Shown: positions 54,141 to 59,544 of the stretch, one piece after another
How the letters are laid out: each line of letters opens with the position of its first letter
Position numbering within the stretch: position 1 is the stretch's first letter
NCBI RefSeq assembly: GCF_002159915.1
Contig: NZ_NFJP01000024.1
Location: 1 to 64,000, forward strand
DNA length: 64,000 nucleotides
Direction: 5' to 3'
Origin: Gordonibacter sp. An230
Lineage (GTDB): Bacteria; Actinomycetota; Coriobacteriia; Coriobacteriales; Eggerthellaceae
Translations under genes and position numbers: made by a program
Notes under the pieces: generated by a model
The model's database searches: none
Told to the model about the DNA's origin: nothing
The model's input: the letters and a program-made list of their open reading frames with translations, nothing else

Positions 54141-55868
54141 ATGGACTCTGTCAAAGGGCAGTTGACGCTGCGCGGCATCCTCATAGGCTGCGTCGGCTGC
54201 ATCGTCATCACCGCCGCATCGGTCTACACGGCTCTCAAGATGGGGGCACTTCCTTGGCCCATCGTGTTCGCGGCCATCGTTTCTCTGTTCTTCCTCAAGG
54301 CGCTCGGCCACGGCAAGGCCAACCTCAACGAGGCGAACGTCACGCACACCGTCATGAGCGCAGGCGCCATGGTGGCGGGCGGCCTGGCTTTCACCATCCC
54401 CGGAATCTGGATGCTCGGGCACGCCGAGCAGGTCGGCTGGTACGAGATGCTGCTCGTGGCGCTCTCGGGCGTCGTGCTCGGCCTCGTGTGCACCGCGCTT
54501 CTGCGCCGCCATTTCATTGAAGAGGCGGGGCTCACCTACCCCATCGGCGAGGCTGCCGCGCAAACGCTCATCGCCGGAGAGTCCGGCGGCAACACTGGCT
54601 GGAAGCTATTCGGCTCCATGGGGCTGGCCGGCATCTTCACGGCGCTGCGCGACTGGCTCGGCGTTATCCCGACGATGCTCTTCGGGGGCATAGCCATCCC
54701 AGGCGTTTCATTCGGCATCTACCTTTCGCCGATTCTCTTGTCGGTAGGCTTCCTCGTGGGAACCGGCGCCGTCGCCGTGTGGTTCTCCGGCGCGCTGCTG
54801 GCGAACTTCGGCATCGTCGTAGGCGGATCGGCCGCCGGCATATGGGACGTCGCACAAGCCCAGGGCATCGTATCGAGCCTCGGCATGGGCGTCATGATGG
54901 GCGCCGGTGCGGGAGTTGTCTGCAAAGACGTGATCCCAAAGGCGATCGGCGCGCTGCGACGGACGCGCAGATCGAGCACGAGCGGCCCCGCCACCCCGGA
55001 TGCGCAACCCTCGAATGCGAGCGGCTCCTCCGAAGAGGTCGCAGCGCCCGGCGGCCTCCGCGTCACCGCCGGGCTCGTCGCGCTCGCCGTCGCGGCGGTC
55101 GCGCTCGTCGCGTGCTTCGGCCTGGGCCTCGGCCCTGTGCCCGCCGTCATCGTCGTGCTGCTCGCGTTCGTCGCCACCGCCATGAGCGCCCAGAGCGTGG
55201 GGCAGACGGGCATTGACCCCATGGAGATATTCGGCCTTATCGTGCTTCTGGCCGTGGCTGCCGTCTCGGACGTGCCGCAAGCTCAGCTGTTCTTCGTCGC
55301 GGGCATCGTGGCCGTCGCGTGCGGGCTGGCGGGAGATGTGATGAACGATTTCCGTGCCGGGCACGTGCTGGGCACCTCGCCGAAGGCCCAGTGGATCGGC
55401 CAAGCCGTCGGCGCGGTGGTCGGCGCGGTGGTGGCCGCCGCGGTCATGGCCGTGCTCGTGGGAGCATACGGCCCCGAGGCGTTCGGCCCGCAAGCGTCGT
55501 TCGTGTCCGCGCAGGCCTCCGTCGTGGCCACGATGGTATCGGGCGTTCCGTCGGTGCCAGCCTTCGCCCTGGGGTTGGCAGCGGGTTTCGCACTCTACTT
55601 GGTCGGATTCCCCGCTATGATGCTGGGGTTGGGCATCTACCTGCCCTTCTACATGTCGCTCACCGCGTTTCTGGGCGCGCTTGCGAAACTCGCCTACGAC
55701 GCCGCGTGCGCCCGCCGACGCGCTGCCCTTGCGCCCGAAGAGCGCACCGCACGCGAGAAGGCGCAAGTCGAAACAGGCCTTGTCGTGTCGAGCGGCCTCC
55801 TCGGCGGCGAGTCAGTCGTCGGCGTCCTCGTGGCGCTTGCCGCCGTCGCGACGGGGCTGGGATCGTAG
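54141..55868 (+). CDS. OPT-family oligopeptide/metal-chelate transporter
   Basis: 575 residues, about 14 helices. OPT features: TALKMGALPWPIVFAAI near the N terminus, YPIGEAAAQTLIAGE, GIYLSPILLSVGFLVG, and GIYLPFYMSLTAFLGAL. Substrate could be peptides or metal chelates. ATG 54141 with AAAGGAGAAGGG upstream. The last 31-base stretch before the stop is repeated just after it. Confidence 0.85.
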   Translation: MDSVKGQLTLRGILIGCVGCIVITAASVYTALKMGALPWPIVFAAIVSLFFLKALGHGKANLNEANVTHTVMSAGAMVAGGLAFTIPGIWMLGHAEQVGWYEMLLVALSGVVLGLVCTALLRRHFIEEAGLTYPIGEAAAQTLIAGESGGNTGWKLFGSMGLAGIFTALRDWLGVIPTMLFGGIAIPGVSFGIYLSPILLSVGFLVGTGAVAVWFSGALLANFGIVVGGSAAGIWDVAQAQGIVSSLGMGVMMGAGAGVVCKDVIPKAIGALRRTRRSSTSGPATPDAQPSNASGSSEEVAAPGGLRVTAGLVALAVAAVALVACFGLGLGPVPAVIVVLLAFVATAMSAQSVGQTGIDPMEIFGLIVLLAVAAVSDVPQAQLFFVAGIVAVACGLAGDVMNDFRAGHVLGTSPKAQWIGQAVGAVVGAVVAAAVMAVLVGAYGPEAFGPQASFVSAQASVVATMVSGVPSVPAFALGLAAGFALYLVGFPAMMLGLGIYLPFYMSLTAFLGALAKLAYDAACARRRAALAPEERTAREKAQVETGLVVSSGLLGGESVVGVLVALAAVATGLGS

Positions 55869-55908
55869 GCGCATCGACGTCCTCGTGGCGCTTGCCGCCG
55901 TCGCGACG
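55823..55908. repeat. 31-bp direct repeat of the OPT gene 3' end
   Basis: The 31 bases at 55823-55853, inside the OPT gene, recur identically at 55878-55908, after its stop (offset 55). The second copy encodes nothing in frame. It lies immediately before the hairpin-flanked gene. Confidence 0.85.
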
Positions 55909-55924
55909 TCCGCCTCCCAAATGC

Positions 55925-55980
55925 GTTGTCGCCCGAAACGGTCGGTTTTCGCGCCGAAACCGACCGTTTCGGGCGACAAC
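55925..55980. repeat. 56-bp perfect hairpin repeat, copy 1
   Basis: Perfect inverted repeat with 24-bp arms (GTTGTCGCCCGAAACGGTCG... and its complement) and an 8-base loop TCGCGCCG, extendable to 60 bases here. Identical in all 56 bases to 57124-57179, same orientation. It ends 8 bases past the stop of the AbiEi-like gene and can serve as a strong terminator. Confidence 0.9.
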
Positions 55981-55988
55981 GCGCGCGT

Positions 55989-57026
55989 TCAGAAGGGAAT
56001 CACGGTGAACAGATGCGCCGATGTCGAACGCGATCGCGCCAAACGCCGTTCGATGCGCGCGTCCTCGTCGTTTCTCGGAACCCCATAGCGGTCGAGAAGC
56101 TCGGCGAAGCGACCTTCGTCCATCACGTCCTGGTATGAGAATCGGACGATGGGCATGCCATACAGGGTGAGCTGCGCTTCGCGATGGCGCTCATCGGCAA
56201 GCGCCCGCAACGAAGAGCGCCCTGCGAGCATTGTCGCGTCCTCGTACTTCTGCATGCCGTCGAACTCGCCGAGCACTTTGCCGCCGTCCGTGCGATTCCA
56301 AAGGAAGTCCACGCGAAAAGAGCGCTCCCGATTCAAAGGCTGCGGCAAAACGACCTGCAGTTCGGGAAGGGCGAAGCCTCGACGGATCATCACCGCACGC
56401 GCGATGGACTCTCCCCCGCTTTCGCTGCGGGCGTCGGCGTAACGCATCGTCCGCACGGCATGGGCAGTCCCCGTATGGGTGCCGCCCATGTGCTCGAAGC
56501 AGGCGGCAAACGACGCTGACGTCATTCCGCTCACGCGCAGGGCGCTATCGGCGGTGGCTAGCGCTTGATCGAAACCGGAGGTGCGCATGCAGTCGAAAAC
56601 GGTCCTCGCCAAAGACGTGACGCGGACGCCACGCACGACAGCGGTTCCATCACCCTCGACGACATGCCATCGAACGCCTTTCGAGCTCGCATTGCGAACC
56701 GACCGAGATGTCGAGACATGAACAGATCGTAGTCTCTCATACGGAACCGCCAAACCGAATGCGGCAGCGGCCGACTCATGGCAAAACACCCAATCCGGAT
56801 GGGCATCCTGCATCGTCCGCATCATATGGAGCATCTGCCGGGACCTCGTGAGAGCGTTCCAATAAGTCGTTCTCGCGAACATACCTCGTGCCGGTCGAAC
56901 CACCTCGCCCCGCTCGACCCTTCGACGCAAGTTAGAACGCACCTGCTCAGAAGAGGGAGCCAGGCACATCTGCCTGGATTCCGCCCGCGAGAAAAGTCGG
57001 GCCATCTCAACATCGTTGGCTCTCAT
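55989..57026 (-). CDS. AbiEi-like wHTH protein with C-terminal nuclease-like (DUF559-type) domain
   Basis: 345 residues. N-terminal winged-helix region (SEQVRSNLRRRVERGEVVRPARGMF) and a middle domain like type IV antitoxins of the AbiEi group. The C-terminal part has a PD-(D/E)XK-like set D240, E254/D256, K260 in VDFLW...GEFDGMQKYED and REAQLTLYGMPIVRF. No AbiEii toxin lies next to it. It is bracketed by identical 56-bp hairpins. A solitary defence-type or mobile cargo gene is possible. ATG 57026; M8 is an alternative. Confidence 0.7.
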   Translation of the reverse strand: MRANDVEMARLFSRAESRQMCLAPSSEQVRSNLRRRVERGEVVRPARGMFARTTYWNALTRSRQMLHMMRTMQDAHPDWVFCHESAAAAFGLAVPYERLRSVHVSTSRSVRNASSKGVRWHVVEGDGTAVVRGVRVTSLARTVFDCMRTSGFDQALATADSALRVSGMTSASFAACFEHMGGTHTGTAHAVRTMRYADARSESGGESIARAVMIRRGFALPELQVVLPQPLNRERSFRVDFLWNRTDGGKVLGEFDGMQKYEDATMLAGRSSLRALADERHREAQLTLYGMPIVRFSYQDVMDEGRFAELLDRYGVPRNDEDARIERRLARSRSTSAHLFTVIPF

Positions 57027-57123
57027 AGCCCATCACCGCCGTCCGCGTCTCCACGACCCTGCCCATCATCCCACACGCCAGCTGATCGCGATACGTCCGC
57101 AGGTCTTCCTCCAAAAAACCGAC

Positions 57124-57179
57124 GTTGTCGCCCGAAACGGTCGGTTTTCGCGCCGAAACCGACCGTTTCGGGCGACAAC
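57124..57179. repeat. 56-bp perfect hairpin repeat, copy 2
   Basis: Identical to 55925-55980. It lies 98 bases upstream of the AbiEi-like start and 105 bases past the glycosyltransferase stop. The two copies are 1,199 bases apart. Confidence 0.9.
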
Positions 57180-57283
57180 GCATCCTGGAAAGGGCGTATG
57201 ACGCCAGCGCGCCAGCAGAGCCGCGCATCGGAGCGCTCATCGGCATGCGGCGGCCGCGCCCGCCGCATGCGACGCACCATGGG

Positions 57284-58315
57284 CTAGTTGAACTTGAAGA
57301 TGCGCCGCGCCATCCGGTAGCCGGAGATGCCGATCTTGCGACCGAGCTCGGTGGGCAGGTTCGTGCCCATGTTCAGCACACTGCGGCGGATGCGCCGGTA
57401 GACGTCCGGGTTCTGCTCTTTGAGGTAATCCCAGATGGCCTCGCGTTTGTCCTCGGCCTCATCGGTGTCGATCATGCGCAAGAAGATAGAGCAGATGCAC
57501 ATCATCATGGACAGGTAGTTCTCCATGTAGCGCTCGAGGCGCTTCTCGGGAACGGCATCGGGCAGCCGCACGGCGTCGATCATCAGGCGCGTCACGCGCA
57601 GCTGCTGGTCGATGCGGCCGATCATCACGCTCTCGTTCACGCTCTGGTCCTCGCGGCCGATGAAGTAGCGGTACATGTCCACGTCGCGGTAGTAGATGGT
57701 CTTCACGTGCGGCAGCGGCACGTACACGAAGATGTTGTCCACGTAGAACGTGTGCTTCGGCAGCTCGAGCCCGATCTCGCGCAGAAGCTCGGTGCGGTAG
57801 ATCACCGAGTGCATGAGCAGGTATTGGCTCTGGCCGAAGTGGCCCACCTCGTCCCAACCGAACTCGCGGCCCTCGGGGAACACGTTGCGGTAGTGCATGA
57901 CAGTGCGTGCGCCCTCGGAAACCTTCTCGTACACGTAGTTGCCTATCACGAGGTCGGTGGCGTCTTCGAGCTCCATCTGGCGGCGCAAGTAGGCCATGAT
58001 CTCGCGCATGGCGGCCTCGTCGAGCCAATCGTCGGAGTCCACCACCTTGAAGTAGCGCCCCGTGGCGTTGGCCAAGCCCGTGTTCACGGCCTGGCCATGC
58101 CCGCCGTTCTCCTGATGCACGGCCTTGACGATGCCGGGGTGTCGCTCCGCCCACGCATCGGCCTTGGCGGCGGTGTCGTCCTTCGTCGAACCGTCGTCCA
58201 CAACGACGATCTCGACATCGCCCACGCCCCCATCGCATTTCAGAATGGATTCAATGCAATGGTCCATGTAACCAGCCGAATTGTAACAAGGAACGGCGAA
58301 TGTAACGGTCTTCAT
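57284..58315 (-). CDS. Family 2 glycosyltransferase
   Basis: 343 residues. GT-A fold: FAVPCYNSAGYMDHCIESIL, VVDDGSTKDDT, NGGHGQAVNTGL, and metal-binding DSDDW. No membrane helices. It overlaps glf by 4 bases (ATGA), so it probably transfers galactofuranose or a related sugar to a cell-surface polymer. Start ATG 58315. Confidence 0.9.
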   Translation of the reverse strand: MKTVTFAVPCYNSAGYMDHCIESILKCDGGVGDVEIVVVDDGSTKDDTAAKADAWAERHPGIVKAVHQENGGHGQAVNTGLANATGRYFKVVDSDDWLDEAAMREIMAYLRRQMELEDATDLVIGNYVYEKVSEGARTVMHYRNVFPEGREFGWDEVGHFGQSQYLLMHSVIYRTELLREIGLELPKHTFYVDNIFVYVPLPHVKTIYYRDVDMYRYFIGREDQSVNESVMIGRIDQQLRVTRLMIDAVRLPDAVPEKRLERYMENYLSMMMCICSIFLRMIDTDEAEDKREAIWDYLKEQNPDVYRRIRRSVLNMGTNLPTELGRKIGISGYRMARRIFKFN

Positions 58316-59544
58316 CGCTGCCCCTCCGAACCGATCACCAGCTCGTCGGCCAACGCGAGCGCGCGGCCGACGATGACGTCCATGTTGTAGTAGCGGTACT
58401 CGGCAAGGCGGCCAAGCGGATGGAAGTTCGCAAGCGGCGCGGTGAGCGCGCGGTAGCGTTCGTAATGCGCCCGATTCTCGTCGGAAAGGATGGCGTAATA
58501 GGGGATTTGCGCCGTCGGATCCTCGTAGGAACGACTGTACTCTTTCATGATGGTGGTCTTGGGATGCGTCTGGCCGGTGAGGTGCTTGAACTCGGTGATA
58601 CGGGTGTAGTCTTCGGTCACCGTGAAGTTCACCGTGCCGCAGGGAAGCACCTGCTCGGCGTCGTGCGTCTCGTACACGAAGTCCAGGCTGCGGTACGGCA
58701 GGCGGCCGAAGCGCGACAGGAAGAGCTCGTCGAGCGGACCGGTGTAGACGATCGGCCCTTGGAAGGGCGCGCCTTTGATGAGGATCGCCGAAAGCGGCGC
58801 GTCCTCCGCCTCGCTTGCGAACTCGAGGTCGAAGACGCTTTCGGCCTCGGTGTCCAGGCACACGAGGATGCCGTCGCAATCGAGCATCCGCTCGAACAAC
58901 GGCGTGTAGCCCTCGGCCGGCATTCCCTGGTAGGCGTCTTGGAAATAGCGGTCGTCGCGCGAGACGAGCACGGGAACGCGTGCCGTGACGGAAGGGTCTA
59001 CCTCTTCAGGAGTGAGCCCCCACTGCTTCTGCGTGTAATAGAGGAACACGTTTTCGTACACGAAATCGGCGATCTCGGATAACTCGGGGTCGTCCTGCTC
59101 GCGCAGCTCGGTGATGGTGACCTTGCGCTCGTCGCCGAAGACATCGACGAGCTTGCGGACGAGCCGCGCGGCACGTTCCTCGCCGAAAGCGATCTCCATC
59201 GAGTTTTTGTTGAACGGAACAGGAAGGTAGGTGCCGTACCAATCGGCGAGCACTTTGTGCTCATAGTCGCGCCAATCGGTGAAACGGCGCACGTAATCGA
59301 AAGTGCGCCTGTCGTTCGTATGGAAGATGTGCGGCCCGTAACGATGCACGAGAATGCCCGCTTCGTCGAGTTCGTCGTACATGTTGCCGCCGATATGCGA
59401 GCGCTTCTCGATGACGAGCACGCGCGCGCGCCCTCTCTCGGCCAGCTCGCGCGCGACAACGGCGCCGGCGAACCCGCTGCCCACCACCACAGCGTCGAAG
59501 TCGCCGTGGTCGAGATCCTTGAAATCGCAGTAACGAACTCCCAT
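58312..59544 (-). CDS. glf: UDP-galactopyranose mutase
   Basis: 410 residues. FAD-binding [20 protein letters not shown], then the mutase motifs [23 protein letters not shown] and YTQKQWG. It converts UDP-Galp to UDP-Galf. It is the first gene of a two-gene operon with the glycosyltransferase. ATG 59544 is preceded by GGGAAGGG. Confidence 0.95.

Follow-up and report, generated by a model that had tools for sequence, protein, structure and literature searches.

A palindrome-bracketed gene for a predicted AbiEi-Vsr fusion nuclease and its dispersed hairpin family in Gordonibacter and other Actinobacteria

The stretch of Gordonibacter sp. An230 DNA analysed here (64,000 nt, hereafter the window) holds a nuclease gene that is bracketed by twin palindromes, which are also dispersed in the same genome. 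The palindrome sequence turns over jointly within a lineage, and the layout recurs with unrelated-looking palindromes across Actinobacteria. The best explanation, to which we assign a probability of about 0.6, is a selfish or domesticated element of two parts, a single-copy nuclease gene and a population of cognate palindromic sites, resembling the REPIN/RAYT partnership with an unrelated nuclease. The protein very probably recognises the hairpin sites, and the balance tips slightly towards its also spreading and homogenising them.

The features of the locus are collected in Table 1. Repeat comparison within the window revealed a perfect direct repeat of 59 nt (55924-55982 = 57123-57181) with a start-to-start distance of 1199 bp, and a chance duplication of 59 nt, perfect, within 64 kb is excluded. 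A preliminary description of this DNA had reported two identical hairpins in the same orientation, 1.2 kb apart and enclosing one gene, which is borne out. Both copies are perfect palindromes with arms of 26 and 25 bp and a loop of 8 nt, and as RNA the sequence folds with -52.4 kcal/mol (z = -9.3 against 200 dinucleotide shuffles). The only ORF enclosed is the nuclease gene, which is single-copy in its own genome. Hairpin 1 occupies the gap between two stop codons, that of the nuclease gene, 6 nt away, and that of the OPT transporter gene, which is convergent; 96 bp separate hairpin 2 from the nuclease gene ATG, on its upstream side. Just before hairpin 1, a 35-nt direct repeat of 97% identity (55819-55853 vs 55874-55908) duplicates part of the OPT gene 3' end.

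Table 1. Features at the nuclease locus (positions in the window)
Feature	Position	Strand	Basis or remark
OPT-type transporter gene, 575 aa	54141-55868	+	convergent with nuclease gene; conserved neighbour
Hairpin 1	55923-55982	none	26-bp perfect arms, 8-nt loop; 59 nt identical to hairpin 2
Nuclease gene, 345 aa: predicted AbiEi-like DNA-binding module and Vsr/homing-endonuclease-like PD-(D/E)XK nuclease	55989-57026	-	profile, model, conservation
Residues 202-317, predicted Vsr-like nuclease	56076-56423	-	structure match and conserved residues
Residues 1-198, predicted full AbiEi antitoxin fold (N-terminal winged helix and second domain)	56433-57026	-	structure match
Hairpin 2	57123-57181	none	59 nt identical to hairpin 1
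Short terminator-like hairpin (GCATGCGGCGG...CCGCCGCATGC)	57243-57270	none	directly after glycosyltransferase stop
Glycosyltransferase gene	57284-58316	-	conserved neighbour of nuclease unit

The protein is confidently predicted to be a fusion, in which a DNA-binding module like the AbiEi antitoxin is joined to a nuclease of Vsr/homing-endonuclease-like fold. The family name given in the preliminary description, AbiEi/nuclease-like, is right but weak by sequence, since the Pfam AbiEi_4 match (E = 5.8e-4) falls under the curated cut-off of the family; the PADLOC AbiEi match reaches E = 5.8e-11. A search of PDB sequences returned no match for the single protein and no credible one for the profile. 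An AlphaFold2 model built on an alignment of 77 homologues has a mean pLDDT of 91.5 and was compared with known structures by VIA-align. Residues 3-198 match AbiEi (6y8q_A; Z 11.7, 178 residues aligned, rmsd 7.2 owing to two-domain flexibility), and the model also matches Rv2827c (1zel; Z 7.3). Residues 203-317 match the catalytic domain of the homing endonuclease I-Bth0305I (3r3p; Z 10.3), and the nuclease domain matches the Vsr-DNA complex (1cw0; Z 8.8). In the 77 sequences, E202, E206, E254, D256 and K260 are invariant and D240 is near-invariant, and the invariant acidic and lysine residues match the pattern of a PD-(D/E)XK site. Carriage by phages or plasmids is rejected, the search for it having given distant matches only, the best of them (82% coverage, 35% identity) on a large Collinsella record.

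The link between gene and hairpins extends far beyond the window. One genome per species was scanned, which gave 80 named homologous loci with flanks, chiefly from Coriobacteriia and two from Bifidobacterium, and control ORFs were drawn from the same loci. Long hairpins stand on both sides of 20/80 homologues and of 0/321 control ORFs. Matching repeats on both sides with a score of at least 20 were found for 53/80 homologues vs 3/279 controls, and with a score of at least 40 for 39/80 vs 0/279, and the remaining 27/80 homologues have no clear matching repeat pair. The flanking repeats show strong secondary structure (median z -6.3). In other genera, the homologues also stand between twin hairpins, whose sequence is particular to them, so that the repeats differ from element to element; within each lineage, the two twins agree with one another and with the dispersed copies of their genome. 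The hairpin reads TTGTCGCCCGAAACGGTCG in the window genome, ...ACGTACG in Paraeggerthella, ...AGCCGCG in Gordonibacter and CTTCGCTCCTAAAACACG in genome G005, and further forms are the 86-96 bp TGACCCCAGGCGAGACCGC in Collinsella and CGAGCAGACGC in a further actinobacterial genus. The layout is often present in distant homologues from other actinobacterial families too (e.g., L260, L262, L274, and L275). The association of gene and hairpin can be regarded as secure.

A half-site search of the window genome and its relatives identified 16 paired copies in the window genome, twins included, together with 1 single half-site and 1 decayed pair, and variants of this hairpin in other genera. A private cassette with hairpins confined to the nuclease gene is rejected on these 16 copies. 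The distance from TTGTCG to CGACAA is exactly 54 nt in 67 of the 70 hairpins measured in five genomes, with a free loop sequence, and the foot in 60 distinct copies is (G)TTGTCG...CGACAA(C). Arm positions 1-6 and 18-19 are nearly fixed; positions 14-17 differ between hairpin families, covary across the stem and form a putative variable specificity box. Over positions 7-19, 97.8% are paired with 131 double changes, compared with 75% and 31 when the 3' letters are re-dealt, a shuffle that ignores relatedness. In the copies of the window genome, changes affect both arms at 6 arm positions and a single arm at 3. From its sequence pattern, the 54-nt hairpin looks like the target of a protein with two-fold symmetry, its spacing being fixed and its arms kept matched. 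Rfam yielded just weak chance matches to the hairpins, under the gathering scores. An integron cassette is rejected as well, the hairpin ends being GTTGTCG/CGACAAC and the attC core GTTRRRY/RYYYAAC.

The copies lie chiefly between convergent or tandem genes, near gene 3' ends, and avoid divergent intergenic regions, as judged with a rough gene caller. Both window hairpins are downstream of a gene end. This preference, like the very stable fold, also fits a role at transcript ends, and the hairpins could be ordinary bidirectional terminators favoured by the lineage, which adjoin the gene by chance or as insulation of an orphan gene. We consider this highly improbable. The hairpins have no T-tract and were left unflagged by a terminator scan, sequence-specific 54-nt cores that differ by lineage are not expected of terminators, and the bracketing, with element-specific sequence, singles out one gene family against the controls. 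Furthermore, the glycosyltransferase gene has a short hairpin of its own, with a similar one at the equivalent position in Gordonibacter G105 and in genome G096, and hairpin 2 is therefore unnecessary as its terminator. The preliminary description had considered a widespread motif that has no association with the gene; the motif is indeed widespread, but the association with the gene holds.

The dispersed copies follow the gene. In a census of 138 Eggerthellaceae genomes, the half-site TTGTCGNYCNAAANNNNCG occurs at least 12 times in 7/7 genomes with a homologue that is about 61% identical or more, and at least 11 times in only 2/131 others (G001 and G096); the Fisher p of 2e-10 for this relation to homologue presence is uncorrected for phylogeny. 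The nuclease gene was not detected in G001 and G096 despite their many hairpins, which may be orphaned palindromes or have a diverged driver that was missed; these two genomes, like the 27/80 homologues above, count against the two-part element. Other families behave alike. The hairpin flanking the gene in G005 and G097 (CTTCGCTCCNAAAACACG; CTTCGCTCC type) has 30+33 = 63 half-sites in G005 and 12+11 = 23 in G097, and among nine other tested genomes there are 19 in G096 and none in the other eight. The G052 hairpin has 9+8 = 17 half-sites in its genome, and the CGAGCAGACGC hairpin has 56+52 = 108 in G295. Reversed-pattern controls for the CTTCGCTCC, G052 and G295 hairpins gave counts of 0-1. 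Paraeggerthella G009 carries two genes and two hairpin families, and each gene is adjoined by its own family. In three dispersed hairpins of G295 (C1 near 900627, 2924349, and 4357734; L297, L298, and L299), a 1.7-kb insert interrupts the palindrome. The inserts carry transposase-like ORFs, which by eye resemble those of IS110 and ISL3, as though the loop were a target of insertion sequences.

A RAYT as the driver of the hairpins was also considered. The window genome has one Y1_Tnp (RAYT-like) gene (C72:83313-83645, L276), near an ffh-like (signal-recognition-particle) gene, and no hairpins of the twin family were found around it; this candidate is rejected.

In Gordonibacter G105 and in Paraeggerthella, the unit occupies the same glycosyltransferase-OPT site as in the window; the nuclease gene is co-oriented with the glycosyltransferase gene in the window and in G105, and inverted in Paraeggerthella. 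Gene and hairpins are both absent from this site in G106 and G108, and in G107, a Gordonibacter without the nuclease, the slot holds a pair of genes that by eye is BrnT/BrnA toxin-antitoxin-like (L228). One intact solo hairpin without the gene is present there in G096, and one decayed hairpin in G097, the nuclease gene of which is located elsewhere. In P. hongkongensis DSM 16106 (G112, L110), the gene is broken, with one TAG in it, and both twin hairpins are intact. These kinds of change at one locus, with the gene inverted between its twins, the site empty or a hairpin left alone, agree with a REPIN/RAYT-like partnership, and inversion, loss and solo copies between identical palindromes can also be expected from ordinary homologous recombination, for which the nuclease is not required. 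As a separate observation, one hairpin in G009 (L081:9974-10031) stands against two in G112 (L209:9696-17585) that bracket about 7.7 kb with oxidoreductase-type genes; the upstream context is also repeated in G112 L209, which looks like duplication or insertion via the hairpin region.

Movement appears to be rare, since the Paraeggerthella pair has 5/5 compared hairpins in common and the unit is mostly vertical in place. No target-site duplication was recognised at the empty-site junctions of G106, G108 and G107, which are strongly diverged. For the dispersed hairpins, the comparison of L201 with L232 of G107 gives the one clear case of an empty site, the other pairs being too diverged, and about 12 nt of the left arm remain there, so that it does not represent a clean excision product. 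Of the proposals in the preliminary description, the REP-like element pair and the hairpins as recognition ends are supported, the hairpins being a dispersed family, specific to each lineage, that goes with this gene family in many genera. Its mobilised cassette survives in part: the unit has been inverted where it stands, and relatives lack it or retain a single hairpin, but its place is kept across genera and no jumping to new sites was seen among the compared relatives. Empty sites, for which it had suggested a search, exist in G106 and G108. Its double-insulated defence gene gained no evidence of a defence function, and no defence genes were seen beside the unit within the window.

Another explanation is a homing or defence cassette, in which a selfish Vsr/homing-endonuclease-like gene cuts palindrome-less DNA, repair copies the palindrome or the gene in, and the hairpins mark self. 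It would agree with the empty and solo sites, with the BrnT/BrnA-like genes in the slot of G107 and with I-Bth0305I as the top nuclease match. However, the dispersed sites are intergenic and do not form a single homing target, an intron or intein context is absent, and the unit has no defence neighbourhood in the window, and we hold this explanation to be quite improbable.

AbiEi is an autorepressor that binds a pair of 23-bp inverted repeats with 3 bp between them (PMC7319586), because of which the palindrome is plausibly a candidate site of the AbiEi module. The protein could then be just an AbiEi-type regulator, the paired-repeat operators of which lie on either side of its gene and at 15-60 places in the genome, with a nuclease serving defence or repair and with hairpins that are not mobilised. 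The constant 54-nt geometry and the specificity box suit protein sites, and in close homologues from Eggerthellaceae, about 94-105 bp separate the upstream hairpin from the ATG. Nevertheless, operators are unusual in convergent intergenic regions or beyond gene 3' ends, are not near-perfect palindromes of 54-96 bp, and do not turn over jointly with 15-60 dispersed copies, which makes the regulator unlikely.

For the two-part element, we infer binding, cleavage and transposition by the protein. The AbiEi module would bind to two inverted half-sites of 19-23 bp, set at a fixed spacing within each palindrome, and the two sites adjoining the gene would give autoregulation and set the ends of the unit. 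The Vsr/homing-endonuclease-like domain may nick or cut at or near bound palindromes, by which palindrome copies would spread and be converted to one sequence. The gene between two palindromes could then invert, be lost, or leave a solo palindrome.

The textbook example of a bacterial enzyme that coexists with many tiny palindromes is REPIN-RAYT, and AbiEi/DUF559-like orphan genes are often annotated as antitoxins. In open-access full texts, only REPIN/RAYT and AbiEi papers were found, and none describes the pairing of an AbiEi-Vsr nuclease with hairpins. Judged on this literature, the pairing of enzyme and site is categorically new, and the layout is a convergent analogue of REPIN-RAYT. A wider proposal, that AbiEi-Vsr fusion nucleases which recognise, copy and homogenise their own lineage-specific palindromes form phylum-wide actinobacterial mobile or domesticated elements, a REPtron that arose independently out of the DNA-binding module of a toxin-antitoxin system and a nuclease of the repair/homing type, stands at even odds. 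If true, it would account for actinobacterial palindrome families with no assigned partner, and AbiEi/DUF559-like orphan genes would gain a testable role. With a matched protein-site pair per lineage, specificity could be read from sequence.

Among known systems, TIRtrons and MITE-forming insertion sequences likewise have a single gene between terminal repeats and short non-autonomous copies elsewhere, whereas the terminal repeats here are complete hairpins and there is no DDE or HUH transposase. The Vsr and I-Bth0305I-type homing endonucleases share the nuclease fold and the acidic/lysine active-site pattern, but the predicted domain here is fused to AbiEi and palindrome-bracketed, with no methylase, intron or intein link seen. 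The AbiE type IV toxin-antitoxin systems (AbiEi, Rv2827c) are alike in that residues 1-198 are predicted to adopt the whole AbiEi fold and in that the sites are paired inverted repeats of similar size, binding being suggested here by analogy. They differ in that the protein here has an additional nuclease domain, the sites flank the gene at either end and are dispersed, and the gene has no adjacent AbiEii/DUF1814 toxin gene, its neighbours being the OPT transporter and glycosyltransferase genes, with hairpins abutting both gene ends. The closest parallel is REPIN-RAYT (REPtrons; Y1/HUH TnpA-REP and REP palindromes; PMC3116915, PMC3733652). By Pfam and structure, the enzyme here is an AbiEi-Vsr fusion and not an HUH Y1 transposase, the GTAG (or CGTC) tag is absent from the hairpin foot in the 60 distinct copies, and the half-sites are paired at a fixed 54 nt; lacking the Y1 (HUH) transposase and the GTAG tag, the element is not classed as a REPtron. 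In both systems, palindromes flank a nuclease-type gene that is present once and inherited vertically, further palindromes, lineage-specific in sequence, are dispersed in intergenic DNA with copies near gene 3' ends, and each paralogue has a palindrome family of its own. A second, unrelated enzyme with the REPIN-RAYT layout would, if true, represent convergent evolution.
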